From Streptomyces sp. ATexAB-D23 (GTDB lineage Bacteria > Actinomycetota > Actinomycetes > Streptomycetales > Streptomycetaceae): a stretch of 64,000 bases of DNA. Where the stretch lies: positions 450,667 through 514,666 of the forward strand of contig NZ_KB892001.1 of NCBI RefSeq assembly GCF_000373645.1. Reading direction: 5' to 3'. The notes beneath the pieces are model-generated. The model did not search any database. It saw only the letters and a list, made by a program, of their open reading frames with translations, and was not told where the DNA came from. A program made the position numbers and the translations under genes. This document shows, piece by piece, positions 2,251-62,058 of the stretch; position 1 is the first letter of the stretch; every line of letters starts with the position of its first letter.

Positions 2251-3078
2251 ATGACGTTCAGGCCCCAGCCGCTTTCCCCCTTCGCCTCCACGCGCCACTA
2301 CTTCGGCTCGGAGCTGCGCCGCCACCGCGAGCACGCGAAGCTCTCCCTCGTACAGCTGGCGGACATCGTCAACTCCAGCAAGAGCACGCTGGCCCGGATC
2401 GAGACGGCGGAACTGATGCCCCCGCCGGACATGCCCAGCTGCCTGGACATCGCCTTCGGGACGGACCAGTACTTCACGGGTCTCTACGAACTCACCAAGC
2501 AGGACATCCATCCCGACAAGTACAAGCGGTACATGAACTTCGAAGCCCGGGCCGAGGTCATAGAGCAGTACGGCGCGCAGGCGCTGCCCGGCTTGTTCCA
2601 GACCGAGCAGTACGCACGGGAGTTACTCCGTTGTCAGGAGCACCTGACCGCCGAAATGGTCGATGAGCGCGTCACCGCCCGCATGTCCCGGCAGGAGCGG
2701 CAGCACTCGGCGAATCCGCCGTTCCGATGGGCGATCGTCGACGAGGCCGTGCTGCGGCGGCAGGTGGGCAGCCGGTCCTGCATGCACCAGCAACTGGCCT
2801 CGCTGCTGGAGCAAGTGGATACTCCGAACAGTAAAGTTCAGGTGATGCCGTTCAGTGCGGGGCCGCACTCGCTGCTGGGGGGCGCACTGACTCTGCTGAC
2901 CCTGCCCGACGGCACCTCGGTGGCGTACGAGGAGAGCATCCAGACCGGTCACCTCTACGAGGACCCGGACGCGGTGAAGAATTGGCGGCGGCGGTACGAC
3001 GTACTGCGCGCCAACTCGCACTCCCTGGCCGAGTCGGCGGAACTGATCCGTACCGCGATGGAGGACTACCGACCATGA
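2251..3078 (+). CDS. WhiJ-like XRE-family regulator (HTH + DUF5753)
   Basis: A 275-residue protein. The start MTFRP at 2251 gives an N-terminal helix-turn-helix at about residues 20-75 (LRRHREHAKLSLVQLADIV, then SKSTLARIE). A DUF5753 ligand/partner-type domain follows (LPGLFQTEQYARELL near 110-130; FRWAIVDEAVLRR; VQVMPFSAGPHSLL). This architecture is typical of the WhiJ/Scr1 family that Streptomyces encodes in many copies, each paired with a DUF397 protein. Its stop overlaps the ATG of the first DUF397 gene (ATGA), so the pair is coupled. Codon 125 is TTA (2623-2625), suggesting that translation awaits bldA tRNA late in growth. Likely DNA-binding repressor modulated by the DUF397 proteins (inferred from paralogues). 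Confidence 0.9.
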   Translation: MTFRPQPLSPFASTRHYFGSELRRHREHAKLSLVQLADIVNSSKSTLARIETAELMPPPDMPSCLDIAFGTDQYFTGLYELTKQDIHPDKYKRYMNFEARAEVIEQYGAQALPGLFQTEQYARELLRCQEHLTAEMVDERVTARMSRQERQHSANPPFRWAIVDEAVLRRQVGSRSCMHQQLASLLEQVDTPNSKVQVMPFSAGPHSLLGGALTLLTLPDGTSVAYEESIQTGHLYEDPDAVKNWRRRYDVLRANSHSLAESAELIRTAMEDYRP

Positions 3079-3269
3079 ACCACTCCCCGGAGCTGAGTTC
3101 CGCCCGTTGGCGCCGCAGCAGCTACAGCAACACCGACGGGGGCGAATGCGTCGAGATCAGCGACGACTTCCCCGGCATCATCCCCGTACGCGACAGCAAG
3201 AACCCCACCGGCCCCGCCCTCGTCGTCCAGGCCGCAGCCTGGAACGGCTTCGTCGCATCCCTCAAGTAA
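3075..3269 (+). CDS. DUF397 small protein, copy 1
   Basis: A 64-residue protein starting at the ATG that overlaps the XRE stop. It has the DUF397 pattern: an ARWRRSSYSN-type start, GGECVEI, VPVRDSKNPTGPAL, then AWNGFVASLK at the end. DUF397 proteins are usually encoded next to XRE/DUF5753 regulators and are thought to act as their partners. A second copy (3290-3490) follows after 20 bp and differs at only a few residues, so the pair arose by recent tandem duplication. Confidence 0.88.
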   Translation: MNHSPELSSARWRRSSYSNTDGGECVEISDDFPGIIPVRDSKNPTGPALVVQAAAWNGFVASLK

Positions 3270-3289
3270 GGCCCCCAAGCGGAGGACTT

Positions 3290-3490
3290 ATGACCATGCC
3301 CCACTCCCCCGAGCTGAGTACCGCCCGCTGGCGCCGCAGCAGCTACAGCAATTCCAACGGGGGCGAATGCGTCGAGATCAGCGACGACTTCCCCGGCATC
3401 GTCCCCGTACGCGACAGCAAGAACCCCACCGGCCCCGCCCTCGTCGTCCGGGCCGCCGCCTGGAACGGCTTCGTCGCTTCCCTCAAGTAG
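3290..3490 (+). CDS. DUF397 small protein, copy 2
   Basis: A 66-residue DUF397 protein with its own ribosome site (GGAGG at 3281-3285) before ATG 3290; ATG 3296 is an alternative start. Nearly identical to copy 1 in both DNA and protein: NTDGG becomes NSNGG, PGIIPV becomes PGIVPV, and VQAAAWNG becomes VRAAAWNG. It is the last gene of the XRE-DUF397-DUF397 operon and is followed by a strong hairpin. Paired copies could give a dosage effect or distinguish two regulator partners; the sequence cannot say which. Confidence 0.86.
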   Translation: MTMPHSPELSTARWRRSSYSNSNGGECVEISDDFPGIVPVRDSKNPTGPALVVRAAAWNGFVASLK

Positions 3491-3510
3491 GGGCTCGGAA
3501 AACAGCGCAA

Positions 3511-3544
3511 CGGCCTGTCCCACACGCGGGTGTGGGACAGGCCG
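3511..3544 (+). terminator. Hairpin terminator after DUF397 operon
   Basis: Perfect 15-bp stem (3511-3525 with 3530-3544) and a 4-nt loop, followed by a T-rich stretch (TCTTCCTTTG). It lies 20 bp after the second DUF397 stop. The rest of the gap to 3789 shows no convincing gene; a short open frame from 3530 has no family resemblance. Confidence 0.8.
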
Positions 3545-3788
3545 TCTTCCTTTGCGACCTTCCTTTGCGCCCGGCACCTGGCCGAACCTCCGCACCGCCC
3601 GAACTTGCCCTTACCACCCGAGGGCTGGAAACAGCCGAGTTTGTCCGGACCGGCCCCGGGGCGCCCCATCCGTGCGTACGCTGCTTTCTTCATCGGCGTG
3701 AGTACGGAGCGGGCCCGCTTGCACACGCAGCGTGTCCGGCGGTCGGTGATGACCTCTCTGGTGCTGGTACGGGAAGGCGAAGCGAACG

Positions 3789-6700
3789 ATGGCGTATGAG
3801 GCGGGCATGGTGGACGACGAGGGACACGAGCCCGCGGGAACGGCGCTGTGTGTGGTGTGCGAGGAGTACGCCGACGAGCGGAGCTTTCCCCGGCTGACCG
3901 GGGCCGTGGCCCAGATGGAGGGCATCGCGGAGCTGCTGGAGGGGCTGGGCATCGCGGCGCGGGTGGTGGATAGCGGGAACCCGTCCTGGGCGGCCTTCGA
4001 GCAGGCCCTCACCGCCTGGAGCGAGGAGTGGCGCGGGTCGGGCGCGCCGAAGCCCGCGGTCATCGTCTGGTCGGGGCACGGCGTGCTGGTCGACGGCGAA
4101 CTGCGCCTCGCCCTGAGCGATTTGGATCTCGACGCCGATCAGGTGACGCGTGAGACACGCGCCCTCAGGCGGGGCGTCGCGGCCGAGACTCTGGTCAATG
4201 AGGCGGTGGCCTCGGGCGCCGACCAGATTCTGCTGGTCATCGACACCTGCCATGCGGGGGACGCGGTGGGCCGGGGCCTGGAGAAGGCGCTGCGGCGCTG
4301 GGAGGCCGCGTCCATGCCGCCCGGCCGGGTCCAGTGGTTCGGGATCATGGCGAGCTGCCGGCGCGGGGAGACCTCGGACGGCGACGGCCCGCTGCTCGAC
4401 GCGCTGACGGAGGTGCTGAAGGCCGGTCCGGCCACCACCGAGTACCGCTCGGCGTGGAGCGCGCACAACGCGTGGATCAGCGGCCCGGACCTGCTGGCCG
4501 CGCTGGGTGAGCGCTGGCGCGGCGAGGGGCAGACGCCGGTGCCCGCGACCGTGGGCACCGGGCGGCCGGTCTTCCCCAACCCGCGCCATGTGCCCGGGGC
4601 CCCGGCCCGGCTGGTGGAGCACCTGGTGCTCGCGGCGCGCGGGGTCGGCTACCGCGAGGAGGGCTGGTTCTTCACGGGCCGCAAGGAGGTGCTGGGCCGG
4701 ATCGTCTCCTGGCTGGAGGCGGACGAGGCCGGGCTCTTCCTGGTGACCGGTCCCGCCGGCTGCGGCAAGTCGGCCGTGCTGGGCCGGATCGCGACGCTCA
4801 CCGATCCCGTGCAGCGCGAGGAGACCGAGGCCCGGGGCGGGCTGCGCGAGGACGACCCGGACCCGGGCCCGCGCCCCGGGCGCTCCCTCGCCTCGGTGCA
4901 TCTGCGCGGACTGAGCCCGCTCCAGGCGGCCTCGGAGCTGGCCCGGCAGCTCGGGCTGCCGGAGCCCCGCAACACGGACGACTTCCGGGGTGAGCTGCGC
5001 GAGTTGCCCCGGCAGCCGGTGCTGGTGCTGGACGGTCTGGACGAGGTGCCCGCCGAGCATCTGCGCGCCATGATCGAGGAGTTGGTCTTCCCGCTCGGGC
5101 GGGCGGTCCCGGTCCTGCTCGGCTCCCGCGAACGCGCGTTCCGCAGCCGCCTGTCGGACGGCGGGCACCCGGACGAGACCCTGCCGGACGCGCTGGCCAG
5201 GCTGATCGGGGCGGGCGTCGTCACCGCGGACCTGGAGCGGGAGCCGCACACGCAGGAGGACATCGCCGCGTACGTGTTCCGCAGGTGCGCGGCGGCCGGT
5301 GTCCCGGAGGACCGGGCGCGGGAGGTGGGCGACGCGGTCGCCTCGCGGGCCACGGCGGTGGACGGCGGGTTCCTGTTCGCCAGGCTGGTGACGGGGTCGC
5401 TGCTGGCGCGGGGGCAGGCCGCCGGGGAGGACGGCTGGCAGGACGGGCTGCCGGGCTCCATCGAGGCGGCGTTCGAGGACGACCTGCGGGCGGGTCCGGT
5501 CCGGGCCCTGGCGGATGGCACCGAACTGCCGTCCGCCGCCCGGGATCTGCTGACCGCGCTGGCGTGGACGGTGGGGCGCGGGATGCCCGCCGGAGGCGTC
5601 TGGGAGGAGGTCGCCGGGGCGCTGGGCGGCCGTGACGTGCCGTACGACGAGAGCGACGTGGACTGGGTGCTTTCCGCGTACGGGCGCTACATCGTCGAGG
5701 ACTCGGAGAGCGGGCAGGCGGTGTACCGGCTGTACCACCGGGAGTTCGTGTCCCACCTCGCGGACCGGCCGGTGCCGGGGGGCGGGGAGGCCGCCGAGGT
5801 GGTGCTCGCCGCGCTCGCCGCGCACGCCGAGCGGCGCACGGCGGACGGCGGCCGGCAGTCGGTCGATCCGTACGTGGTGCGGGGGCTGTCGCGGCACGCG
5901 GTGCGGGCGGGTGAGCCGGGCATCGGGATGCTGCGGGGACTGGCGGAGCGGGTCGGGCCGAGCGCGGTGCCGGTGCTGGCCCAGGCGTTGCACGGCCTGT
6001 CCGAACGGCTCGGGAGGGAAGGGGACCTGGACGGGGCGTTGGAGGCGGCACGGGAGGCCGCGGTCCTCTACGGGGCGCTGGAGGAGGCCGCCCCCGGGTC
6101 CTGCACGACGTCGCTGGTCCACACGCTCGTCAGCGTCGCCAACCGGTGCGCCGACATCGGCGACCGTGAAGGGGCGCTGGCTCCGGCGCGCGAGGCGGTC
6201 GCGCTCCAGCGGAAGGCCGCCGAGGCGGGAGGCAGTGCGTCGTGGCCGGACCTGGCTCTCGCCCTCGCCACGCTAGGCCGCCGCGTCCACGACATCGGTG
6301 ACCGCGAGGAGGGGCTCACGCTGACGCGGGCCGCCACCGGTATCTTCCGGGAGCTGGCCGAGGAGGAACCCGCGGCCTTCCGTCCGCGGCTCGCCGCCTC
6401 GCTGACCAACCTGGCGGTGAGCCTGGCGGCCGTCGGGGAACGCCGGGCCGCCGTTGAGCCCGCGCAGGAGGCGGTACGGCTCCACACCGAACTGGCCGCC
6501 TCGCACCCGGACGAGTTCCTGGCGCCCCTCGCCTCCTCCCTGACCAATCTGGCCTACGTCCTGAAGGCCGTCGGGCGGCAGGCGGACGCGCTCCCGCACG
6601 CGGAAGCGGCGGTCCGGGTCAACCGGAAGGTCGCCGAGCGCCATCCCACCGCCCTGCGGGCCGCGCTGCAGGGCTCCCTGACCAATCTGTCCGAGCACCG

Positions 6701-8846
6701 GGCGGACACGGGCGATCTCGCGGGATCTCTCGCGCCCGCCCGGGAGGCCGTGGACATCTGCCGGGAACTCGTCTCACGGCACCCGGACGCCTTCCGGCAG
6801 GACCTGGCCGCCTCCCTCCACAACCTGGCGGAACGGATCTCCGCCACCGGGGACCACGAGGGCGCCCTTGCCCCGGCCCGGGAGGCCGCGCGCATGTTCG
6901 CCGGACTCGCCAAGGAGCACCCCGACGTCTTCCAGCCGGATCTCGCGCGCACCCTGACGTCGCTGGCCAACAAGACCGCCACCGCCGGCGACCGTGCGTC
7001 GGGGGTGCTGCTCGCCCGCGAGGCCGTCCGCATCCAGCGCGATCTGGTCCGGAACCGGCCGACGGCCTCGGCGCCGGGGCTGGCCGCGATGCTCAACAAC
7101 CTCGCGATGCATCTCGGCACCGCGGGCGAGCCCGGGGAGGCCCTGCCCCACTCCGAGGAGGCGGTCGCGCTCTACGGGCACCTCGCCACCGAGGACCGGG
7201 ACGCCTTCCTTGCGGAGTTCGCGGTGGCCCTCAACAACCTCGGCAACTTCCGCGCGACCCTGGGCGACATGTCGGGGGCGCTCGCGGCCGGCCGGGAAGC
7301 GGTCACCATCCGCCGTGAACTCGCCGCACAGCAGCCCGCCGTCTTCCGGCAGGAGCTGGCCACCTCGCTCGCCAATCTCGCCGCCCACCTCAACAGGGCC
7401 GGGGAACCGGCGGAGGGGCTGCGGGCATCGGAGGAGGGCGTCGCGCTCCTGCGGGAACTCGTCGCCGACGCACCCGTCCTCCGCTCCTCCCTCGCGGGCT
7501 CGCTCGGCACCCTGGCCCAGAACCTCGCCCACACCGGAAGCCCGCAGGAAGCCCTGACCGCGGCTGAGGAAGGTGTCCTCCTCTGGCGCGGGCTCGCGGA
7601 CGAGCAGAGCGGCGCCCACCTCCCCGATCTGGCTCTCGCCCTGCGCAACCTCGGCAAGCTCCTGGGGATGGGCCAGGACCTCGAAGGGGCGGTGGGCACG
7701 GCCCGGGAAGCGGTCACCGCCTACCGGGCCCTGGCCCTGACGGACCCCCGCGCCTTCGCGGGGGACCTGCTGCACTCCCTGGGCGACCTGGCCCACGCGC
7801 TCGCCCGCACCGACGACCACGACGCGGCGGTCGCGGCGTTCGACGCGGTCGTGGCGGAGTTCGCCACCGTCCACCCGGCGACCGCCCGGCGCCTCGGTGT
7901 CGAGCGGAGCATCTTCCTGCTGGACTGCCCCGGTACCCGCCCCTCGGACGGCGTACGGGAACTCGTTTCCTTCCTCGGCGGGGACAGCGGTGCCGAGGAG
8001 GACGACGGCCCGGACGTGGTGACCGTACGGGCCCGGCGTGCGCTTCGCGCCCATGGCGATGCCGAGGCCGTGCGCGCCGCGTGGGAAGCGGAGACCTTCG
8101 GCCCGGTGCCCGACTGGCTCGGCCTGTCGCAGGAGACGCTGGACCTGGTCAGCTCCTGGCTGTTCGCGCCCGACTGGCCCACGTCACGCGATGTCTGGTC
8201 CCGGAACACCGAGGTTCTCGGGGGCGAGGAGACCGCGACGGCTCTCGAAGAGCTGGCGCTCCTGGATGCCCGGACCGCGCAGCGGCACGCCGCGCTCCGT
8301 GAGCTCGTGCTCGCCCACGGGGTGACCGCCGCGTACGACCCGCTGATCCTCTCGGAGCAGCTGGCCGAGTGGGTGGGCTGCGAGTCCTGGGCCGAGTCGC
8401 GGGCCTTCCTCCAGGACCACCCGCGCCTCCTCGGGGTCCGGCCGTCCCCGGACACCCCGCTCTCGCACGTCGCCCTCCTCGATGTCTCCCGCGCGGAGGG
8501 GATGGACGCCGCGTACCGCCTGGTCGAGGACCGCGACGCCCTCCACGCCTATGTGGAGCGGGCGATGGCGGCCGGGGACGGCAACGCCCTGATGACCGCG
8601 GCGGCCATCGAGGGGCAGGTCTTCAACGACCAGCTGTCCTCCCTCACCCACGCACAGGCCGGCATGGTGCTCGCCGGCGCCGTCGAGGGCGTCGAACCGA
8701 GCGAACTGGCCATCCTGATCCCCCGCTCGCGCGAGGAGATCCGGGTCCGGCTGCTGAGGGAGATCGCCGGCCTCAGCGTCCAGCACGCCCACCCGCACGG
8801 CGAGCTGTGGCTCCGCATGGTCCAGGCACTCAGCGGGGCCGCCTGA
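3789..8846 (+). CDS. Caspase-like peptidase / NACHT-type NTPase / TPR protein
   Basis: A 1685-residue multidomain protein. Residues ~15-240 are a caspase-like (peptidase C14) domain with the His motif VIVWSGHG (His97) and the Cys motif LLVIDTCHAG (Cys154), so both dyad residues are present. Residues ~285-700 are a STAND/NACHT NTPase with Walker A GPAGCGKS (321-328) and Walker B VLVLDGLDE (411-419). About 13 TPR-like units of ~46 residues run from ~775 to ~1370 (pattern LA-SL-NLA---A--G). The last ~280 residues match the C-terminal domain of the truncated protein at 2-1114. Such proteins are signal-gated switches in which ligand binding to the repeats drives NTPase oligomerisation and protease activation, often in programmed death or phage defence. 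The start at 3789 has a GGAAGG site; ATG 3807 is an alternative. Confidence 0.9.
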   Translation: MAYEAGMVDDEGHEPAGTALCVVCEEYADERSFPRLTGAVAQMEGIAELLEGLGIAARVVDSGNPSWAAFEQALTAWSEEWRGSGAPKPAVIVWSGHGVLVDGELRLALSDLDLDADQVTRETRALRRGVAAETLVNEAVASGADQILLVIDTCHAGDAVGRGLEKALRRWEAASMPPGRVQWFGIMASCRRGETSDGDGPLLDALTEVLKAGPATTEYRSAWSAHNAWISGPDLLAALGERWRGEGQTPVPATVGTGRPVFPNPRHVPGAPARLVEHLVLAARGVGYREEGWFFTGRKEVLGRIVSWLEADEAGLFLVTGPAGCGKSAVLGRIATLTDPVQREETEARGGLREDDPDPGPRPGRSLASVHLRGLSPLQAASELARQLGLPEPRNTDDFRGELRELPRQPVLVLDGLDEVPAEHLRAMIEELVFPLGRAVPVLLGSRERAFRSRLSDGGHPDETLPDALARLIGAGVVTADLEREPHTQEDIAAYVFRRCAAAGVPEDRAREVGDAVASRATAVDGGFLFARLVTGSLLARGQAAGEDGWQDGLPGSIEAAFEDDLRAGPVRALADGTELPSAARDLLTALAWTVGRGMPAGGVWEEVAGALGGRDVPYDESDVDWVLSAYGRYIVEDSESGQAVYRLYHREFVSHLADRPVPGGGEAAEVVLAALAAHAERRTADGGRQSVDPYVVRGLSRHAVRAGEPGIGMLRGLAERVGPSAVPVLAQALHGLSERLGREGDLDGALEAAREAAVLYGALEEAAPGSCTTSLVHTLVSVANRCADIGDREGALAPAREAVALQRKAAEAGGSASWPDLALALATLGRRVHDIGDREEGLTLTRAATGIFRELAEEEPAAFRPRLAASLTNLAVSLAAVGERRAAVEPAQEAVRLHTELAASHPDEFLAPLASSLTNLAYVLKAVGRQADALPHAEAAVRVNRKVAERHPTALRAALQGSLTNLSEHRADTGDLAGSLAPAREAVDICRELVSRHPDAFRQDLAASLHNLAERISATGDHEGALAPAREAARMFAGLAKEHPDVFQPDLARTLTSLANKTATAGDRASGVLLAREAVRIQRDLVRNRPTASAPGLAAMLNNLAMHLGTAGEPGEALPHSEEAVALYGHLATEDRDAFLAEFAVALNNLGNFRATLGDMSGALAAGREAVTIRRELAAQQPAVFRQELATSLANLAAHLNRAGEPAEGLRASEEGVALLRELVADAPVLRSSLAGSLGTLAQNLAHTGSPQEALTAAEEGVLLWRGLADEQSGAHLPDLALALRNLGKLLGMGQDLEGAVGTAREAVTAYRALALTDPRAFAGDLLHSLGDLAHALARTDDHDAAVAAFDAVVAEFATVHPATARRLGVERSIFLLDCPGTRPSDGVRELVSFLGGDSGAEEDDGPDVVTVRARRALRAHGDAEAVRAAWEAETFGPVPDWLGLSQETLDLVSSWLFAPDWPTSRDVWSRNTEVLGGEETATALEELALLDARTAQRHAALRELVLAHGVTAAYDPLILSEQLAEWVGCESWAESRAFLQDHPRLLGVRPSPDTPLSHVALLDVSRAEGMDAAYRLVEDRDALHAYVERAMAAGDGNALMTAAAIEGQVFNDQLSSLTHAQAGMVLAGAVEGVEPSELAILIPRSREEIRVRLLREIAGLSVQHAHPHGELWLRMVQALSGAA

Positions 8847-51327: not shown

Positions 51328-52737
51328 ATGTTCCAGAACGCCGACGACGCGAAGAAGTTCATCGCCGACAACGACGTCAAGTTCATCGATGTCCGGTTCT
51401 GTGACCTGCCCGGTGTGATGCAGCACGTCACCGTGCCGGCGGCGACCTTCAACCCGGCCGACGAGCTTGCCTTCGACGGCTCGTCGATCCGCGGCTTCCA
51501 GGCCATCCACGAGTCCGACATGGCGCTGCGCGCGGACCTGTCGACCGCCCGCGTCGACCCCTTCCGCCGCGACAAGACCATCAACATCAACTTCTTCATC
51601 CACGACCCGATCACCGGCGAGCAGTACAGCCGTGACCCGCGGAACGTGGCCAAGAAGGCCGAGGCCTACCTCGCCTCGACCGGCATCGCCGACACCGCGT
51701 ACTTCGGCCCGGAGGCCGAGTTCTACGTCTTCGACAACGTCCGCTTCCAGACGTCGGCGAACGAGAGCTTCTACCACATCGACTCCGAGGCCGGCGCCTG
51801 GAACACCGGTGCGATCGAGAACAACCGCGGTTACAAGGTCCGCTACAAGGGCGGTTACTTCCCCGTCTCGCCGGTCGACCACTTCGCCGACCTGCGCGCC
51901 GAGATGTCCCTGGAGCTGGAGAACAGCGGCCTTCAGATCGAGCGCCAGCACCACGAGGTCGGCACCGGCGGCCAGGCCGAGATCAACTACAAGTTCAACA
52001 CGCTGCTCGCCGCGGCCGACGACCTGATGCTCTTCAAGTACATCGTGAAGAACGTCGCCTGGCGCAACGGCAAGACCGCGACCTTCATGCCGAAGCCGAT
52101 CTTCGGCGACAACGGCTCGGGCATGCACGTCCACCAGTCCCTGTGGGCCGGCGGCGACCCGCTGTTCTACGACGAGCAGGGCTACGCGGGCCTCTCGGAC
52201 ATGGCGCGCTACTACATCGGCGGCATCCTGAAGCACGCCCCGTCGCTGCTGGCCTTCACCAACCCGACGGTGAACTCCTACCACCGCCTGGTCCCCGGCT
52301 TCGAGGCCCCGGTCAACATGGTGTACTCGCAGCGCAACCGCTCCGCCGCGATGCGCATCCCGATCACCGGCTCCAACCCGAAGGCCAAGCGCGTCGAGTT
52401 CCGCGCCCCGGACCCGTCGTCCAACCCGTACCTGGCCTTCTCGGCCCTCCTGATGGCCGGCCTGGACGGCATCAAGAACAAGATCGAGCCCGCCGAGCCG
52501 ATCGACAAGGACCTCTACGAGCTGGCTCCCGAGGAGCACGCCAACGTCCAGCAGGTCCCGACCTCCCTCCCGGCCGTCCTGGACGCCCTGGAGGCGGACA
52601 ACGAGTACCTCCAGGCGGGCGGCGTCTTCACGTCCGACCTGATCGAGACGTGGATCGACTACAAGCGCACCCACGAGATCGCCCCGATCCAGCTGCGCCC
52701 GCACCCGCACGAGTTCGAGCTGTACTTCGACCTCTAA
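51328..52737 (+). CDS. glnA: Glutamine synthetase type I
   Basis: A 469-residue GSI; ATG 51328 preceded by AGGAGGAG. Visible motifs are FDGSSIRGF (~50), [34 protein letters not shown] and the adenylylation site Tyr397 in DKDLYELAP. It makes glutamine from glutamate and ammonia as a dodecamer. Transcription is probably GlnR-controlled and activity controlled by adenylylation. Confidence 0.97.
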
Positions 52738-52810
52738 ATCGCGCGGCCCGAACGCGCCCGCACCGCCGGTCGGAACCTGATGGCGTACCGGCGCGGCCAC
52801 GCCGGAGCCA

Positions 52811-52848
52811 GAGCCCTGCCACTCTTCACGGAGAGTGGCAGGGCTCTT
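52811..52848. terminator. Hairpin terminator after glnA
   Basis: Perfect 16-bp stem (52811-52826 with 52833-52848), 6-nt loop; also serves the convergent GNAT gene, whose stop is 3 bp away. Confidence 0.85.
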
Positions 52849-52850
52849 CG

Positions 52851-53363
52851 CTAACTCTCTCGCAGCGTTCTGACCATGACCGCGTACAGCGGGGAGTCGT
52901 CGGAGGGCTTGGCCCCGTCCCGCTTCTCGTAGCCCCACTTCTCGTACAGGGCCTGCACCCTCGGGTGGGTGGAGTCGACCAGGAGCGTCACGAAGTCGAC
53001 CTCGACCGATCGGATCAGTGCGTCGTGGATCTGCTGCGCCCGGCCGGTCCCCTGCCACTGGGGTACCACCATCAGCTCGGACAGGGCGAAGATCCGGCCG
53101 CGCACATCCCTGGGCCGGTCCGATCCCTTCCACCAGCCGCCCGGCTTGAACCTCGAACCGTACGCGTACCCGATCGGTCCGCCGTCCTCCCAGCCCGAGA
53201 CGCACAGCCAGTTCTCGCGCCCGGACCACAGGTCGACGTAGTGCGAGAACCGCTCGCGCGAGTGAAACGGGTCGGGCTCGTCCGCGTAGACCTCGTCATG
53301 TATGTCCAGGAGCAAGGAACGCACGTCCTGCGCATCGGCGTGCGTGTGCGTCTTCAGATCCAT
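52851..53363 (-). CDS. GNAT-family acetyltransferase
   Basis: A 170-residue protein. Central FALSELMVVPQWQGTGRAQQIH (~92-113) is the acetyl-CoA loop; VTLLVDSTHPRVQALYEKWGYEK follows. It overlaps the upstream regulator by 10 bp, so the two are co-expressed. It may take part in the nearby lasso cluster or act independently; substrate unknown. Confidence 0.83.
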   Translation of the reverse strand: MDLKTHTHADAQDVRSLLLDIHDEVYADEPDPFHSRERFSHYVDLWSGRENWLCVSGWEDGGPIGYAYGSRFKPGGWWKGSDRPRDVRGRIFALSELMVVPQWQGTGRAQQIHDALIRSVEVDFVTLLVDSTHPRVQALYEKWGYEKRDGAKPSDDSPLYAVMVRTLRES

Positions 53364-54595
53364 CGGCGTGACTCCTCGATCCAGCTCACGACCTCGGCCG
53401 CCTTCGTGCCCGTGGCCTCAATGACTTGGCGAGTGACAGCGAGCGTCCTCGTCGTGCGCAGCGACCCGGACGCCGGCAGCAGCATCTCGTACGCGCGGCG
53501 TCCTGTTCCGGCGGCAAGCTCCACCTCTCCCTGCCTCGCCTGGGAAAGCGATAGGTGCGCCGTGTAGAGGGCCTTGTTCCGGACCATGTCGTCGGGGATC
53601 CCCGCAAGAGTGTGGTGGAGGCAGGACTCGGCCCGCTCGTGTTCCCCCAGTGCGGTCCAGACGTACGACGCCAGGGCGTTGTATTCGGCCCAGTCGTAGA
53701 ACGAGATCCACGCGGAGGGCCGTACATCGTCGGCGCGTCCGAATGCCTTCTCCGCGAAGCTCATGGCCCGCAGCGATTCGGTGGGCTGATGCAACCTCGC
53801 CAAGGCGTTCGCGTGCCGCATGTGTCCCAGCGACGCATACAGCGGGTCCCGCCGGGCGGTCGAGGACCGCTTCATGACCTCGGCGCCGGCCGCCGCCTCG
53901 GCGTGGTTCTCGCGTTGGCTGGAGGTGAGCATCAAGTGATCCCAAACGCGGTACATGCCCTCCCCCTCACGCGCCAGACCCGCGAGGGGGAGGGCTTTGT
54001 CGAGGTGGGAGCGGGCACGCTGTGGAGCGCTTGCGTCGATGGCGGCGAAGGCCGCCAGACACATGGCATCGGAGGCGAGCCGGTACATCTGGCGCTGCAC
54101 GCGGTCCGAGGCGCCACCGCCGGCGAGCGACGACTGGATACGTGCCGTGAGCTCGATGGCTCTGTTCTCGACCCTCCGCGCCCCGCCGAGTCGCGAGTCA
54201 TCGCGCAGCAGCTCGGTGTACTCCAGGTGAAACCGGTCGGCGTCGCACTGTCCCAACCGCGTGAGGCGTGGCGAGGTGGCAACGGCCGCGACGGTTCCGG
54301 TCGCTGCGACAAGGAAAGTACGGCGGTGCACTGGGCCCTCCGCTTGTACGGCGGTACGTGGTGGGGCGAACCCCAGATCCGCGACAGGGCAGCCGAATAC
54401 CGCCTCAAGTGCGGCACACGTGCGGCCGATCGGTCTGCGGGTGCTGCCGTTGAGAAGGTTGCGCACTGTCCGCGCGGACACATCGCCCGGCCTCCCTCCG
54501 AGCTCGTCGAGCGCGATGTTCATCCGACGTGCTAATTCGTCCTGCGTCAGACCAAGTTCGTCCATCCGGCCTCGCAGGATGACGTTCGCTCCCAT
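53354..54595 (-). CDS. XRE-family regulator with TPR-like C-terminus
   Basis: A 413-residue protein; ATG 54595 (MGANVILRGRMDELGLTQDE). HTH ~8-70 (LARRMN, SARTVRNLLNGSTRRPIG). A twin-arginine-like/hydrophobic patch (HRRTFLVAATGTVAAVA, ~98) precedes a helical repeat domain (~130-400). Codon 21 is TTA (54533-54535), implying bldA-dependent timing. It is divergent from the small genes and lasso operon; a CGTCCG-N19-CGGACG inverted repeat (54621-54651) just upstream may be its operator. Probable pathway regulator (inferred). Confidence 0.8.
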   Translation of the reverse strand: MGANVILRGRMDELGLTQDELARRMNIALDELGGRPGDVSARTVRNLLNGSTRRPIGRTCAALEAVFGCPVADLGFAPPRTAVQAEGPVHRRTFLVAATGTVAAVATSPRLTRLGQCDADRFHLEYTELLRDDSRLGGARRVENRAIELTARIQSSLAGGGASDRVQRQMYRLASDAMCLAAFAAIDASAPQRARSHLDKALPLAGLAREGEGMYRVWDHLMLTSSQRENHAEAAAGAEVMKRSSTARRDPLYASLGHMRHANALARLHQPTESLRAMSFAEKAFGRADDVRPSAWISFYDWAEYNALASYVWTALGEHERAESCLHHTLAGIPDDMVRNKALYTAHLSLSQARQGEVELAAGTGRRAYEMLLPASGSLRTTRTLAVTRQVIEATGTKAAEVVSWIEESRRWI

Positions 54596-54837
54596 GCGGC
54601 AGAACGTAGCCGGGTCGGTACGTCCGAACCAGCCGTCGGGTAATACGGACGCAAAGTTTTCCGGTTGGCTGTTGGCGCCTCGACGGCGACCTTTCCTGTC
54701 CACAGCCGCCCGACGGTCGTTGACTGGTCATACGCCCCGGAGGTTGAAGGACGCTCCGGGCGGTTCCCCCGAAGCAGCGGCCACGCCCTGTCTGTGGTAC
54801 GGCCCGCTGCACCAGCCCTCACCCGCAGGAGTGCGCG

Positions 54838-54981
54838 ATGACCACGCCCCTCCCCGCCGACGAGCAGCCGGAGTACGGCGTCCCGAGCTCCGACCTGACA
54901 GCCCGTGCCCACGAAGGGTTCGCGGTGTTCCTCGCCCAGTTCGAGGACAACGACCCGCCGGACGAGGAGGTCGCACAATGA
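54838..54981 (+). CDS. Small acidic hypothetical protein
   Basis: A 47-residue protein (MTTPLPADEQPEYGVPSSDL...EEVAQ) with GCAGGAG upstream of ATG 54838. Rich in Glu/Asp/Pro; contains AHEGFAVFLAQFEDND. Its stop overlaps the next ATG (ATGA). Such small genes often sit beside XRE/TPR regulators in Streptomyces. Function unknown. Confidence 0.65.
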   Translation: MTTPLPADEQPEYGVPSSDLTARAHEGFAVFLAQFEDNDPPDEEVAQ

Positions 54982-55190
54982 CCGCCGTCGGCATCGGATC
55001 GTTCTTCCACGAAGACGGCCACCCCTGGCTGCATCGACAAGTCCGCGACGTCGCGAGCCGGGGCGAAGGCAAGCTCACCGCGATCGTCCACGAGAGGACA
55101 AACGGACGAACTGTTCGTGTCGCGCATGTGCGGCCCGCATCCGGGGTCGAGTGGACGACGTCCGTAGACAACCTCCAGCTCATCCCGTGA
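54978..55190 (+). CDS. Small hypothetical protein
   Basis: A 70-residue protein coupled to the preceding gene (ATGA). Predicted beta-rich: MTAVGIGSFFHEDGHPWLHR, TAIVHERTNGRTVRVAHVRP, then EWTTSVDNLQLIP. No family recognised. It is about 160 bp before the lasso precursor on the same strand. Confidence 0.65.
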   Translation: MTAVGIGSFFHEDGHPWLHRQVRDVASRGEGKLTAIVHERTNGRTVRVAHVRPASGVEWTTSVDNLQLIP

Positions 55191-55353
55191 GACAGCGATT
55201 GGCAGTCCTCTCGGACACCATCCTCACCGTTCTCGCACGGCCCTCGCCGACACGTTCGGGAAGGTAGCCCACTGACTTCCGCCCCGCCGCATCACCAGCC
55301 CGGGGCGGGTGCACCACCAGGCATCACTCGCACATTTACAGGAGGGCACCACC

Positions 55354-55494
55354 ATGATCGACACCTGCAACGAGAACAGCGACACCGCTCCCGAGAAGAA
55401 ATCGGTGGCGGTCGACCTTGGCGATGTCGCTGAGCTGACCGAGGGCCAAGGCGGCGGACAGTCGGAGGACAAGCGCCGCGCGTACAACTGCTGA
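55354..55494 (+). CDS. Lasso peptide precursor (albusnodin-type)
   Basis: A 46-residue precursor; ATG 55354 has AGGAGGG 8-9 bp upstream. The ~30-residue leader ends in VAELTE, with Thr at position -2 as lasso leader peptidases require. The 16-residue core GQGGGQSEDKRRAYNC starts with Gly1, which can be joined to Glu8 or Asp9. Lys10 just after the ring is the expected acetylation site. From memory the core equals or closely matches albusnodin, an acetylated lasso peptide. The C-terminal Cys is single, so no internal disulfide is possible. Confidence 0.93.
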   Translation: MIDTCNENSDTAPEKKSVAVDLGDVAELTEGQGGGQSEDKRRAYNC

Positions 55495-55512
55495 TCCCTG
55501 TCGCACCGGGCG

Positions 55513-55538
55513 CGGCCCTGGCCCTCGGGCTGGGGCCG
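55513..55538 (+). terminator. Attenuator-like hairpin after precursor gene
   Basis: A ~11-12-bp GC stem (arms 55513-55524 and 55527-55538, two G-T pairs), followed by TTCCCCGCTTTT. It lies between the precursor and cyclase genes, where partial termination would keep precursor mRNA in excess over enzyme mRNA. Confidence 0.5.
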
Positions 55539-55566
55539 TTCCCCGCTTTTGACCCTGGAGGACACG

Positions 55567-57369
55567 TTGCCCATCGGCGGATTCAGCGCCAACCGGCCCG
55601 ACCTTCCTCGGCCGCTCGGCGCGGAGAGCATCACCACGACCTCTCTGTGGCGACTCGGCAGCGCCCCCGTCCGCACGGCCCAGCGGCCCGGCCGACGCGT
55701 CCATGTCATCGGCTTGTGCGGAGCCACGGCTGAAGAGGTGCAGTCTCTCGCCGACGGCCTTGTCCCCACCCACGCGACGTGGCAGTGGCCGGGTACCTAC
55801 GCGGTCTTGGAGGAACTGGAGCACGGCCTTGTCCTCCATACCGACCCGGCCGCCGCACTCCCCCTGTACGCGGTCGCCTGGCGCGGGACCTGGGCCTGGT
55901 CGACATCGGCGCGCCACCTTGCCGCCCTGGCGGACGCGCGCATCGACATAAGGCGCCTGGCCTGCGCGTTCCTCGCCCCATCCGTGCCCGCATTGGCTTC
56001 TGGCCGTACGTACTTCTCCGGAGTCGAACAGCTCCCACCCGGCAGCCGCATCGAACTCCCTGCCACCGGAGACCGCTACACGTGCAGCAGCATGTGGTGT
56101 CCCGACCCCCTCAATGGACCACCGCCACACCTGCGCTTGCGTAGCGCCCTCACTGCCGCCGTACGTCTCCGCGCCGACACCGACCCGGCCCTGTCCAGCG
56201 ACCTTTCCGGTGGCCTCGACTCCACCACGGTCGCCGTCCTCGCCTCCTGCGCCGTGCCGGACCCGGTCAACGCCGTCACCGTCCACCCCAGAGGCGTCCT
56301 CGACGGCGCCGACCTCCGTTACGCTCGGCTCACCGCTGCGGCCTTCCACGGCAGGCTCCGCCACCATCTCCTCCCGCTCGGCGATGAACACCGGCCGTAC
56401 ACCGGGCTCACCGACATACCCGTGACCGGCGAACCCGCGCCTTCCACGCTTACGCAGATCCGGCTCCTGGCCCAATTCCGCTGGATGCGCCGGGAACTCG
56501 GCACCCGCACCCACCTGACCGGCGACGGCGGGGACAGCATTCTCTTCCAGCCGCCGGCCCATCTTGCCGACCTCCTGCGCCATCGCAGGTACATCCGCGC
56601 CGCCCGCGACGCGCTCGGATGGGCTCGGCTTCGCCACACCGCCGTCGCCCCGCTGCTTCGCTCCGCAGCGATGATGACGACCACCACTCGCGAGCACGCC
56701 TTGACAACTGTCGCCACCGAATTGAGCAACGGAGTCAAGCAGAATCGGGAGAATGTCGGGTGGTTCTCCGCCCTCCCCGTGCCCTCATGGGCAAACCCCT
56801 CAGCCGTACGCCTCCTCACCGAGGCCACCGAGGGCTACGCTGCCGAGCCCGACCCGCTGCCGGGTCCGGACGCCTCAGTGCGCATCCTCGTGGACGAGAT
56901 CCGGGAGGTGGCGCGCACGGCGGTGGCCGATGCCGAACTGGCCGACGCCTGCGGAATCGAGCTGCACAATCCGTTCCTGGACGCCTCCGTGGTCGACGCG
57001 GTGCTACGGACCCCGCTGGGCCGGCGCCCCCCGCTCTACGCCTACAAGCCGGTGCTGACGCGGGCGTTCGCAGATCTGCTCCCCGCCGAACTAGCAGCCC
57101 GTACCACGAAGGGCGCCTTCGAGGCAGACCACTACGGCGGACTGCGCGCCGCGCTTCCCGGACTGCTCGCCACCGGGGGCATGAACCTGGCCTCGCTCGG
57201 CCTGATCGACGCGAAGCGCTTCCGTGACCAGATCCTCCGGGCCGCCGCCGGGGCGCCTATGCCACTCGCGCACATCGAGCAGGCCTTGGCCGCCGACGCC
57301 TGGTTGCACGCCCTCATCCACGCTCCCGAGCCCGTGTGGGTCGCTCGTGTCCCCGGAAAGGTGGAGTGA
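55567..57369 (+). CDS. Lasso peptide cyclase (asparagine-synthase-like, C protein)
   Basis: A 600-residue protein. TTG 55567 is chosen because CTGGAGGA (55555-55562) is spaced correctly; TTG 55549 lacks a site. The degenerate N-terminal glutaminase-like domain lacks an N-terminal Cys. The synthetase part has PP-loop LSGGLDST (~214-219), LTGDGGDSILF (~318) and ELHNPFLDASVVDAVL near the C-terminus. It adenylates the ring-forming side-chain acid and joins it to Gly1 of the core. It overlaps the next gene by 1 bp. Confidence 0.93.
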   Translation: MPIGGFSANRPDLPRPLGAESITTTSLWRLGSAPVRTAQRPGRRVHVIGLCGATAEEVQSLADGLVPTHATWQWPGTYAVLEELEHGLVLHTDPAAALPLYAVAWRGTWAWSTSARHLAALADARIDIRRLACAFLAPSVPALASGRTYFSGVEQLPPGSRIELPATGDRYTCSSMWCPDPLNGPPPHLRLRSALTAAVRLRADTDPALSSDLSGGLDSTTVAVLASCAVPDPVNAVTVHPRGVLDGADLRYARLTAAAFHGRLRHHLLPLGDEHRPYTGLTDIPVTGEPAPSTLTQIRLLAQFRWMRRELGTRTHLTGDGGDSILFQPPAHLADLLRHRRYIRAARDALGWARLRHTAVAPLLRSAAMMTTTTREHALTTVATELSNGVKQNRENVGWFSALPVPSWANPSAVRLLTEATEGYAAEPDPLPGPDASVRILVDEIREVARTAVADAELADACGIELHNPFLDASVVDAVLRTPLGRRPPLYAYKPVLTRAFADLLPAELAARTTKGAFEADHYGGLRAALPGLLATGGMNLASLGLIDAKRFRDQILRAAAGAPMPLAHIEQALAADAWLHALIHAPEPVWVARVPGKVE

Positions 57370-57926
57370 TGGAGCGGTCCGTGGACTTCGGTCACGTACA
57401 GGTCGTCATCAACTACGACACCGGCGGCGTGCGCTGTCTGATCCCTGCAGAGCCTGCCCCGTCGACCGCTCCGAAGGCGAGTTGGGGCAGCACCGAGCAC
57501 CCCGCCGGCCTCACTGTCCCCCACAGCGCATGGAGCTCCACCGCAGCCGCCGTCCTCGCCGGCGTCCTGGCGGTGAAAGCAGCGGGGAAGAAGGAAACCG
57601 CCATGCGACGCCTCATCGATGTCATACGCACAGCGACGTCAACAACCACACACCCCGCCACCCCCGAGCAGGCCGAGCGTGCTGTCCTCGCCGTGCGCCG
57701 GGCCGCCTGGTTCTCTCCCGCCCGAACCGCCTGTCTGGAAGAGTCGGCCGCCGCCGTGCTTCTCCTCGCCCTCCGGCGCCGGTCTGTCGTCTGGTGCCAC
57801 GGCGTCGCGCCGGACCCCGTACGCCTGCACGCATGGGTCCAGACTGGCGAAGGAGTTCCCGTAGCCGAACCGCCGTCCACGTTCCTCTACACGCCCGTCT
57901 TGATGATCGGAGATACCCATGACTGA
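57369..57926 (+). CDS. Lasso leader peptidase (B2-type), possible N-terminal recognition segment
   Basis: A 185-residue protein. The C-terminal ~85 residues match B2 transglutaminase-like peptidases: AAWFSPARTACLEES (Cys122), VRLHAWVQ (His154) and PVAEP (Glu167), where most relatives have Asp. The N-terminal ~80 residues (GHVQVVINYDTGGVRCLIP) may be a short recognition element, as no separate B1/RRE gene is present. It cleaves the leader so the C protein can cyclise. Overlaps the acetyltransferase gene by 8 bp. Confidence 0.85.
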   Translation: MERSVDFGHVQVVINYDTGGVRCLIPAEPAPSTAPKASWGSTEHPAGLTVPHSAWSSTAAAVLAGVLAVKAAGKKETAMRRLIDVIRTATSTTTHPATPEQAERAVLAVRRAAWFSPARTACLEESAAAVLLLALRRRSVVWCHGVAPDPVRLHAWVQTGEGVPVAEPPSTFLYTPVLMIGDTHD

Positions 57927-58491
57927 GCCGGCTCTGTGGCTGACCACCAAGACCTGCGGCCTCGGCTCCTACCGCGCCGATCTGGTCGAGACGTACTGGA
58001 AATGGGAGCAGGACCTCACCCTGATGATCGGCTACGGCCGCCAGGCCCCCGAGTCCTTGGAGGCCCGCGCCGAAGGGATGCAGCACCAGCTCCGGGGATC
58101 GAACACCCGCTTCACCGTCTACGACCTGGCCGGCACCGAGCCCGTCCCGGTCGGCGTCACCACTCTGCTGCCCGACGATTCCGTACGCACCGCCGAGTTC
58201 GTCGTCATGCTGGCGCGCGAAGCCCGTGGACGCGGCCTCGGCACCGAAGCGACTCGCCTGACCCTCGACTACGCGTTCCACGTGGCCAACCTGCGCATGG
58301 TGTGGCTCAAGGTGCTGGCTCCGAACGCGGCCGGGCTCAAGGCGTACGAGCGCGCCGGGTTCCAGCCAGCGGGAAAGCTGCGCGAGGCCGGATACTGGCT
58401 CGGCCAGGTCTGCGACGAGGTGCTGATGGATGCTCTGGCGCAGGACTTCACCGGGCCTTCGGCGGTGCAGGCGCTCCTGGGCCGTGTCTGA
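57919..58491 (+). CDS. GNAT acetyltransferase of lasso cluster
   Basis: A 190-residue protein with acetyl-CoA loop LAREARGRGLGTEATRLTLDYAF (~96-118) and LKVLAPNAAGLKAYERAGFQPAG. Tight overlap with the B2 gene indicates a dedicated tailoring enzyme; by analogy with the albusnodin cluster it should acetylate the core Lys. In that system acetylation is reported as integral to production (recall). Confidence 0.88.
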   Translation: MTEPALWLTTKTCGLGSYRADLVETYWKWEQDLTLMIGYGRQAPESLEARAEGMQHQLRGSNTRFTVYDLAGTEPVPVGVTTLLPDDSVRTAEFVVMLAREARGRGLGTEATRLTLDYAFHVANLRMVWLKVLAPNAAGLKAYERAGFQPAGKLREAGYWLGQVCDEVLMDALAQDFTGPSAVQALLGRV

Positions 58492-58610
58492 CCCAGGGTC
58501 TCGGGTCGACTCGCGGAGGGTCGCCCACCTAATTCGATTGCGGCGGCTTCCCGCCATGGACATGCTGTGCGTCGTCAAGATGCCGGCCGGCGCCTGGGGG
58601 CGGGGACTCG

Positions 58611-59888
58611 ATGACCGTACAAGCCGGCACGGGCGCGGAGGACGTCCAGGATCGAAGGACTCACGCGGCCTTCGGTCTCTTCTACACGTCGTTCGTCGTG
58701 TCGGCCCTGGGCGACGCCTTCCGGCTCCTCGCCGTCAACGTATGGATCTTCAACGCCACTTCGGGCTCCACCGGTGCCCGGCTGCTCGTGGTGCTGCTGG
58801 CGAATCTGCCCGGGATGCTGCTCGGCGGCCTGTCCGGTGTCGTCGCGGACCGCTACGACAAGTACACCGTGCTCATCGCTTCCGACCTGGTCCGTACGGG
58901 GGTGGGGCTCGGGCTCGCGTGGTGCGCGCTCGATTCCCGTACGGTTCCCGCTCTCGTTCTGATCGCGGTGGGCAACGGCGTCGGCGTCTTCTTCAACAGT
59001 TCGTCGTTCTCGCTGCTGCCGCGGCTGGTGAGCGAGGAGCGGTTGCCGCGCGCCAACGGGTTCATGGAGACCGGGCAGTGGGTCGTGCAGATCGTGGGGC
59101 CGTCCCTCGCCGCGATCACCCTGGCGACCGGCTCCGCGAGTCTCGCCTTCGCCCTCGACAGCGCGTCCTTCATCGTGTCCGCCGTGATCCTCCGGTGCCT
59201 GCGCGGGGTGCTGAGGGCGCCGGGGCCGCAGCCGGTGGACGCCGGGCGGGCGGCGGGCGAGGAGGACGAGAGGGGCGGCGGGCACTGGGCGGACTTCACC
59301 GACGGCGTCAGGATCATCCGGCGGAGCAAGGACATCCGTGCGCTGCTGCTCGCGTCCTACGGGATCGCGTTCCTGACCGCCTGCACGAGCTACGGGCTGA
59401 TCTTCGTCGTCGCACGCACCTTCGCGCTGCACGCCTCGGCTCTCGGGTACATCTACTCGCTGAACGGAGCGGTCGCCGTGATCGCCGCGGTGCTGGCCAC
59501 CGCGCTGGCGAAACAGGCGTTCCTGGGGCGGCTCATGGCACTGTCGATGCTGGGGCTGTGCGTGGCACAGGTGGTCATGGGTGTGGCGCCGAACATCTAC
59601 GTGCTGGGAGTCGGTGTCGCCATCAGCGCCCTCGCCAACGCCCCGTACAACGTGTCGGTGACGTCCCTGTACATGAGCAGGATTCCGGCCGCGTATCTCG
59701 GCCGGGTCGAGGGCATCGACACGATGATCGACAACTTCATCAGCGTCTGCGGGTTCACGGCCGCTTCGGTGATCGTGCTGTGGTGGAACCCGCAGGCGAT
59801 CTTCCTGATATCGGCCGCCGTCGCCCTTCCCAGCCTGCTCCTCGCCTTCACGCGGGTGGCCGGGGAGGGCGCGGCGGGCGCCGAGTAG
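58611..59888 (+). CDS. MFS exporter
   Basis: A 425-residue protein, ATG 58611, about 12 membrane segments. MFS loop-like RYDKYTVLIASDLVRTG after helix 2, and a cytoplasmic central loop (~205-235). It resembles drug/siderophore exporters of the ENTS type. It lies 119 bp after the acetyltransferase, same strand, and may export the lasso peptide or give immunity; membership of the cluster is inferred. Convergent with the SulP gene with a 1-bp gap. Confidence 0.88.
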   Translation: MTVQAGTGAEDVQDRRTHAAFGLFYTSFVVSALGDAFRLLAVNVWIFNATSGSTGARLLVVLLANLPGMLLGGLSGVVADRYDKYTVLIASDLVRTGVGLGLAWCALDSRTVPALVLIAVGNGVGVFFNSSSFSLLPRLVSEERLPRANGFMETGQWVVQIVGPSLAAITLATGSASLAFALDSASFIVSAVILRCLRGVLRAPGPQPVDAGRAAGEEDERGGGHWADFTDGVRIIRRSKDIRALLLASYGIAFLTACTSYGLIFVVARTFALHASALGYIYSLNGAVAVIAAVLATALAKQAFLGRLMALSMLGLCVAQVVMGVAPNIYVLGVGVAISALANAPYNVSVTSLYMSRIPAAYLGRVEGIDTMIDNFISVCGFTAASVIVLWWNPQAIFLISAAVALPSLLLAFTRVAGEGAAGAE

Positions 59889-61395: not shown

Positions 61396-61701
61396 GAGGG
61401 CGTACCTGTCGGTCGGGCGCGCCCGGTCGCTGGGAGCGTGCGGGCGTACGGGGGCACGTGCGGGGACGAGAGGGGTGCGGAGGCGCGGGGCGGCGTGCCG
61501 GGTGGAGCCGGGGCTCAGGGGTGACGGGTCACGGCGGGCAGGCGGCGTTGCGGGGCGTCGTCGTCATCCGCTCGCTCGCTCTCTCTCCCACCGGAATTTC
61601 GGGCGCGTTCCTCGGCTCCGCCCCGTGGGGCGTGGAATGTACACACACGCGTACGCGTGGTCCCTGGCGCCAGACAACTGTACCTGCCCCGGCCGTGGCC
61701 C
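61396..61701. other. Upstream region of SulP gene
   Basis: About 300 bp with no supported gene. It contains an alternating TGTACACACACGCGTACGCG patch near 61638-61658. Likely promoter region for the SulP gene. Confidence 0.3.
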
Positions 61702-61870
61702 TCAGGGCCTGTCCGGCGGATCTTCGTGGATCAGCCCGCGGCGTCTGGTGCGTGCTATCGGCGTGCGCCAGAATCGCCCTCGTACTGGACGTACTTGGGT
61801 GATTCGGGCGCGCGGCGAGAGTGCGTGCCAGGCGTCGCGGGCCCGCGAAGATCCGCCGGACAGGCGCTAA
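61702..61870. mobile_element. MITE-like element B (169 bp)
   Basis: 25-bp terminal inverted repeats with 2 mismatches (61702-61726 and 61846-61870; GCCTGTCCGGCGGATCTTCG) enclose ~119 bp without coding capacity. Internal blocks such as GGATCAGC-CGCGGCGTC and TACTGGACGTACTTGGGTG match the minus-strand reading of element A, although the terminal repeats have diverged between the two. Same family, different end specificity. Confidence 0.8.
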
Positions 61871-62058
61871 GATCGTGCCCGTGAACACCGGACCGGCTGT
61901 AGGCCATTCACGGAACGGCTACCCGGTGGTGGGCTGAGCCCCCTCCGGACGCGCCTCGCGGCGCGTTCCGTATGCCTGGCACGGGGACCTCCCCGGGCTC
62001 GTACAGCGTGCGTTTCCCACTGTGCCGAGCCACGAAGAGATCACGAGGTCGTTCACCC
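61871..62058. other. Gap between MITE B and VOC gene
   Basis: 188 bp. An 18-codon frame from GTG 61881 and a small GC hairpin near 61951-61969 could be a leader peptide and attenuator, but the support is weak. Confidence 0.25.

Follow-up and report, generated by a model that had tools for sequence, protein, structure and literature searches.

The window analyzed here, a 64,000-nucleotide stretch of the Streptomyces sp. ATexAB-D23 genome (contig NZ_KB892001.1, positions 450,667 to 514,666), carries a four-gene operon predicted to encode the acetylated lasso peptide albusnodin. A sequence-only reading of this DNA had proposed such a cluster and had taken its core to be the same as, or very close to, that of albusnodin; the comparison bears this out. 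The core, GQGGGQSEDKRRAYNC, is identical letter for letter to that of albusnodin (PMC12427821 Table 1) and to that of Sven-LP from Streptomyces venezuelae (PMC5974421 Table 1), and it is given as a predicted core in two further papers on S. venezuelae. Since the core matches that of published albusnodin, the operon would specify an already known compound rather than a new one, and the window adds one more genome carrying its genes. We hold this identity, together with the pathway, to be highly probable. The cluster is ordinary in its identity; its relatives are of mild interest, since they bear on what the acetyltransferase does and on the loss of part of a leader-binding domain.

The operon (55354-58491, plus strand throughout) holds the precursor, cyclase, peptidase and acetyltransferase genes in A-C-B-T order, all four of which the sequence-only reading had named. 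Preceded by an AGGAGG ribosome-binding site (55340-55345) with an 8-nucleotide spacer to the ATG at 55354, albA (55354-55494) encodes a 46-residue precursor that scores 68 bits against the albusnodin family model NF033525 of NCBIfam (cut-off 30). Its leader spans 30 residues, ends in ELTE and has the Thr at the penultimate position that is expected of a lasso precursor; the core occupies residues 31-46 (55444-55491). The macrolactam cyclase gene albC (55549-57369; NCBIfam NF033561, 712 bits, cut-off 300) has candidate TTG starts at 55549 and 55567. It is followed by albB (57369-57926; NCBIfam NF033537, 97 bits, cut-off 33), for a B2 leader peptidase with a shortened N-terminal RRE domain, and by albT (57919-58491), for a 190-residue GCN5-related N-acetyltransferase (GNAT) that matches Pfam PF13302 (52.5 bits, cut-off 25.4) and PF00583 (43.9 bits, cut-off 20.7). 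The genes had been described as overlapping, which is correct for albC/albB (1 nucleotide, at 57369) and albB/albT (8 nucleotides, 57919-57926) but not for albA and albC. The cyclase and the B2 peptidase mark the operon as a lasso peptide cluster, and the family precursor, the identical core and the gene order with a GNAT mark it as one of the albusnodin family; this combination of genes is not attributable to chance reading.

In this strain, AlbB would cut the leader off after ELTE, AlbC would activate Glu8 and link it to Gly1 around the tail, giving an eight-residue ring and the lasso fold, and AlbT would acetylate Lys10. The calculated monoisotopic mass of the acetylated macrolactam is 1748.765 Da for the full core and 1645.756 Da when the Cys is missing. 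The ring had been drawn from Gly1 to either Glu8 or Asp9, and comparison favors the former. Among 31 precursors, taken from separate loci with an acetyl-type cyclase after removal of duplicates within one genome, residue 8 is always Glu and residue 9 varies (22 Asp, 9 Asn or Ser), so that Glu8 is most likely the acceptor and Asp9 is disfavored. Lys10 and Tyr14 are likewise present in 31/31. The search pattern required Gly1, the Thr of the leader and some acidic residue within positions 7-11, and left Glu8, Lys10 and Tyr14 free; three of the precursors (L080-L082; loci are numbered L and genomes G) share one sequence, and two (L005 and L040) come from broken operons. A free C-terminal Cys had also been predicted. 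This is doubtful, since 14 of the 31 cores have Cys at position 16 and the sole albusnodin product seen, according to the accessible part of the source, lacked it (PMC9266682). For 15 main-group members, mean identity is 93% over the first 15 core residues and 59% over the last 14 leader residues, and the core codons are 71% identical at their third positions, which argues that the peptide itself is strongly constrained. Neighboring cyclase groups contributed 12 precursors for comparison, loci without a pattern match and one spurious extra match at L131 having been left out. Lys10 occurs in 3 of these and Glu8 in none; a YxxP motif is present in all 12 of their leaders and absent from all 31 acetyl-type leaders.

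AlbT also occurs in genomes that lack the rest of the operon. We surveyed 392 genomes of the same genus with AlbT as the seed, which under-represents loci from which AlbT has been lost; searches for the cyclase and the peptidase in the same genomes served as controls. An AlbT match was present in 31 genomes. AlbT without an intact cyclase was found at 13 loci, a cyclase without an intact AlbT at 2 and both intact at 14 (sign test on 13 versus 2, p = 0.007, relatedness ignored), and a full-length albusnodin-type peptidase without either partner in none of the 392. The 14 take in G293, whose locus spans two contigs, and G150, which lies at the end of a contig; both were scored as intact. Counted among the 13 are G035 and G297, which have a complete cluster elsewhere as well, G116, which has an internal cyclase deletion, and G056, where one TGA was flagged, yet the frame was read, as L019, through 188 residues. 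The remaining 2 are G202:C48 and the doubtful case of G225, where cyclase and peptidase are fused and the cyclase has lost about 60 C-terminal residues. G044 is damaged in both genes, and G005, G078, G158 and G171 hold AlbT fragments or broken frames only.

Named genomes gave 34 loci (L004-L037) with a nearly full-length AlbT: the cyclase is covered over at least 80% of its length at 17, has no match to the window query at 13, is partial at L005 and L020, and is cut by a contig end at L022 and L028. No intact albusnodin-type cyclase was detected (E <= 1e-30) in 23 genomes with orphan or broken loci, where the search returned only the broken L005 and L020 copies and cyclases at 30-35% identity. 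A C-terminal piece of the peptidase gene is kept beside AlbT at L011, L023, L030, L033, L035, L105 and L106, a C-terminal piece of the cyclase gene at L020 and L029, and decayed pieces of the latter at L121. At L032, L019 and L015, AlbT is bordered on either side by sequence collinear with the flanks of the complete clusters L120, L024 and L013, respectively, an indication of loss in place.

Individual loci illustrate how the operon can be damaged. L005 (G116 contig C281) has lost about 209 cyclase codons in frame, and its precursor, peptidase and AlbT are intact. The fusion in G225 (G225:C1:4968120-4971053, in L117) forms an 830-codon frame followed by a frameshifted AlbT, where a sequencing error is possible. 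The remnant in G044 (G044:C1:3453453-3456242, in L119) has a cyclase without its N-terminus and an AlbT frameshifted near residue 41, and no precursor was found in it. G202 carries a complete cluster of divergent type on contig C66 and, on C48 (L073/L134), a second acetyl-type cluster with the core GQGMGSSEDKRRAYN, whose AlbT, close to the end of the contig, is disrupted.

A tree of AlbT with 54 rows (28 from complete clusters, 2 from contig edges, 3 from loci with a broken A or C gene, 7 beside a B stub and 14 classed as alone) intersperses orphan copies among cluster-linked ones, with 16 label changes as drawn. Strong support is confined to 8 of 51 branches, which force only 5 of the changes, and the label follows the tree barely above chance (16 changes versus 18.3 on shuffling, with 88 of 500 shuffles as low). 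The tree does not discriminate gain from loss. The stand-alone copies are under purifying selection. The ratio of nonsynonymous to synonymous substitution rates (dN/dS) of 23 orphans relative to the nearest cluster copy is 0.08-0.34 (L030, which has an internal stop, was left out); the median ratio of the corresponding proportions (pN/pS) is 0.28 for orphans and 0.23 for cluster copies (p = 0.051). Of 82 clade-invariant residues, a median of 98.8% is kept both in the 15 main-clade orphans and in the cluster copies. In a simulation in which half of the differences were neutral, 3-52% of AlbT copies stayed open; an open frame is therefore no proof, and the argument for constraint rests on pN/pS and on the invariant residues.

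We suggest, giving the idea about an even chance, that acetylation by AlbT serves self-resistance: it would mainly disarm the peptide inside the cell, and relatives would have kept the same enzyme by itself for immunity. A constrained AlbT that outlasts its biosynthetic partners is the pattern expected of an immunity gene, and the AlbT-only loci favor self-resistance over a purely biosynthetic acetylation. The proposal agrees with the self-resistance role that the available part of a review assigns to Lys acetylation for triculamin and lariocidin (PMC13352647). It agrees as well with the Sven-LP cluster having yielded no exconjugants in three hosts, for which the accessible sections of the report offer two explanations, toxicity or some action of the acetyltransferase (PMC5974421). 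A bolder version, which we place slightly short of even chances, is that AlbT is primarily a resistance gene, that unacetylated albusnodin is toxic and has a conserved target, and that AlbT circulates alone in non-producers, among them the same-species genome G155. Several observations weigh against self-resistance. AlbT is damaged at L030, L038-L041 and L112-L114 and in G078; L038 and L040, at the window's own site, have lost it along with the rest; G202:C48 combines a complete cyclase with a disrupted AlbT, and G225 kept its cyclase with AlbT frameshifted. The pN/pS of orphan copies is, moreover, slightly above that of cluster copies. In the literature as far as its text was accessible, we found no antibacterial activity of unacetylated albusnodin reported, and no paper on stand-alone AlbT stood out among the open-licence titles and abstract openings that were listed.

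A further difficulty is that no unacetylated peptide was obtained without albT, in the portion of the source available (PMC9266682). This also fits a scheme in which acetylation is an obligate biosynthetic step on the linear precursor that enables folding and has no role in resistance. Acetylation before folding is deemed likely in the accessible parts of two reviews (PMC9266682, PMC8498205), whereas a 2026 review, likewise available in part, counts acetylation among the modifications confirmed after threading (PMC13352647). Such a scheme is also at odds with the 13 loci at which an intact AlbT, under purifying selection, lacks an intact cyclase, and we consider it rather unlikely. A little less unlikely is the possibility that stand-alone AlbT proteins are GNATs with some other substrate, or represent an ancestral pool on which the operon drew. 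GNATs are versatile, the few strong branches of the tree (8/51, with 5 forced changes) leave gain and loss undistinguished, and some divergent-clade orphans reach only 60-65% identity with the closest copy from a cluster. However, remnants of B or C lie beside AlbT at L011, L020, L023, L029, L033, L035, L105, L106 and L121, the pairs L032/L120, L019/L024 and L015/L013 share flanks on both sides as expected from loss in place, and the orphans have kept the clade-invariant residues. The resistance proposal has the merit of being directly testable with orphan AlbT enzymes already in databases.

A complete RRE together with a YxxP leader motif is usual, although not obligatory, among lasso peptides. 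Neither part of this canonical arrangement is seen in the window, where the leader lacks YxxP and AlbB lacks the RRE helices. The window AlbB has 185 residues; 11 relatives have forms of 239-248 residues, with a full RRE, in which the strands are followed by an additional segment. The window has the short form in common with L004-L006, L008, L013 and L021, and the AlbB proteins of the divergent L034, L036 and L037 are likewise without the extra segment. An AlphaFold2 model of the window AlbB has only strands 2-6, 11-15 and 20-24 ahead of the first B2 helix, and that of L010 has strands and two helices (38-50 and 58-66) before the B2 domain (mean pLDDT, the predicted local distance difference test, 84.8 and 86.5, respectively). 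As modeled, then, the window AlbB is without the helical half of the leader-binding domain present in relatives. Foldseek listed the lasso RREs 5v1v and 6jx3 and the RRE 8t19 for the long AlbB and not for the short one, all with weak E-values. Searching PDB sequences with a profile of AlbB returned five matches, all of them weak (E 0.09 or worse) and none to a lasso protein.

The distribution of the short AlbB, the two models and the Foldseek lists are what one would see if the window cluster were crippled, its peptidase unable to find the leader and its yield of albusnodin small or nil. We think this improbable. The short form occurs in several species, in which the frames are open and the core hardly varies, so the pathway seems to be maintained, and the absence of YxxP from 31/31 leaders suggests that recognition may differ across the family as a whole. 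For the short AlbB, Foldseek also listed one 25-column match, to the sactipeptide maturase 5why. A small open reading frame (ORF) upstream of the operon, at 54978, is disfavored as a replacement RRE because L004 and L006, with complete operons, have only pieces of it. The shortened RRE is a natural case in which to ask how little leader-binding domain a lasso peptidase needs.

The cluster had been given a span of 52851-59888. This is too wide, as it takes in a second GNAT gene and an NsdA-type regulator gene, both on the minus strand, and a backbone gene of the MFS family. G155 matches the window up to 52736, at the end of glnA, and again from 58534 on, across the MFS and SulP genes; the intervening 5.8 kb or so (52737-58533) is replaced there by 106 bp of other sequence. 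The segment is thus variable within the species, having been either gained here or lost there. Besides the lasso operon it contains the second, unrelated GNAT (52851-53363, minus strand; PF00583, 27 bits, cut-off 20.7), which also adjoins the cluster in L004-L006; the NsdA-family regulator (53354-54703, minus strand; NF053720, 219 bits, cut-off 75); and two small ORFs on the plus strand, one of 47 residues (54838-54981) and a conserved one of 70 residues (54978-55190) with partial matches in L004 and L006. PADLOC, run on four of the segment's proteins to look for a defense system, gave no match. Although without the cluster, G155 has an AlbT homologue (77% identity) elsewhere in its genome, beside a gene pair that we take to be XRE/DUF397; in the window genome, the operon copy is the only AlbT match at E <= 1e-20.

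The MFS transporter gene (58611-59888, plus strand), previously listed behind the acetyltransferase gene as part of the cluster, belongs to the species backbone. It lies in the 98% identical G155 stretch past the empty site, and tblastn found no MFS gene in L004-L006, which carry the operon; on both findings we reject it as the cluster's exporter. The glnA-SulP site itself may be a hotspot for acetyl-type clusters, as suggested by L034 (Streptomyces sp. 130, 2466-7815), where a divergent cluster of this type, with the core GNTSSSVENKQTPYCG and an AlbT of 58% identity, directly precedes a SulP gene that shares 93% identity with that of the window. Deletion scars are found at this site: L040 joins cyclase residue 92 to AlbT residue 143, and at L038 the AlbT C-terminus alone remains. 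Further along the window lies an element resembling a miniature inverted-repeat transposable element (61701-61871, about 170 bp, with 29-nucleotide terminal inverted repeats). It is one of ten near full-length copies in the genome, at least 91% identical, and 165 bp of it are missing at the same site in G155.

Among solved structures, AlbT is matched over residues 5-186 by the GCN5-related N-acetyltransferase of PDB entries 9iy3, 9iy4 and 9ubc (230 bits; phmmer E 2e-67 for 9iy3). Among the 20 of 228 literature matches listed for 9iy3, the hits concern an unrelated abbreviation only. To our knowledge, albusnodin has no known target. The albusnodin cluster of S. albus DSM 41398 (albACBT) has the same core, a GNAT and, in the part of the review available, the same A-C-B-T order (PMC8498205), and differs from the window's in strain and flanks. 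Its product is described, in the accessible text, as acetylated at Lys10 in an albT-dependent manner (PMC9266682), and the portions of two reviews at hand report 43 similar clusters (PMC9266682, PMC8498205). Sven-LP of S. venezuelae ATCC 10712 shares the core and, by the available sections of the report, likewise has an acetyltransferase gene (PMC5974421); the leaders differ, being MTDLPRTEEAPAGAEVLDIGDAAELTQ for Sven-LP and MIDTCNENSDTAPEKKSVAVDLGDVAELTE for the window. Triculamin and lariocidin, lasso antibiotics in which the accessible part of a review describes Lys acetylation as self-resistance (PMC13352647), are likened to albusnodin here by description and not by sequence. The lariocidin cluster carries a GNAT gene, as the window's does; unlike albusnodin, lariocidin has 18 residues, a Ser1-Asp8 ring and an ABC exporter, and it binds the ribosome.

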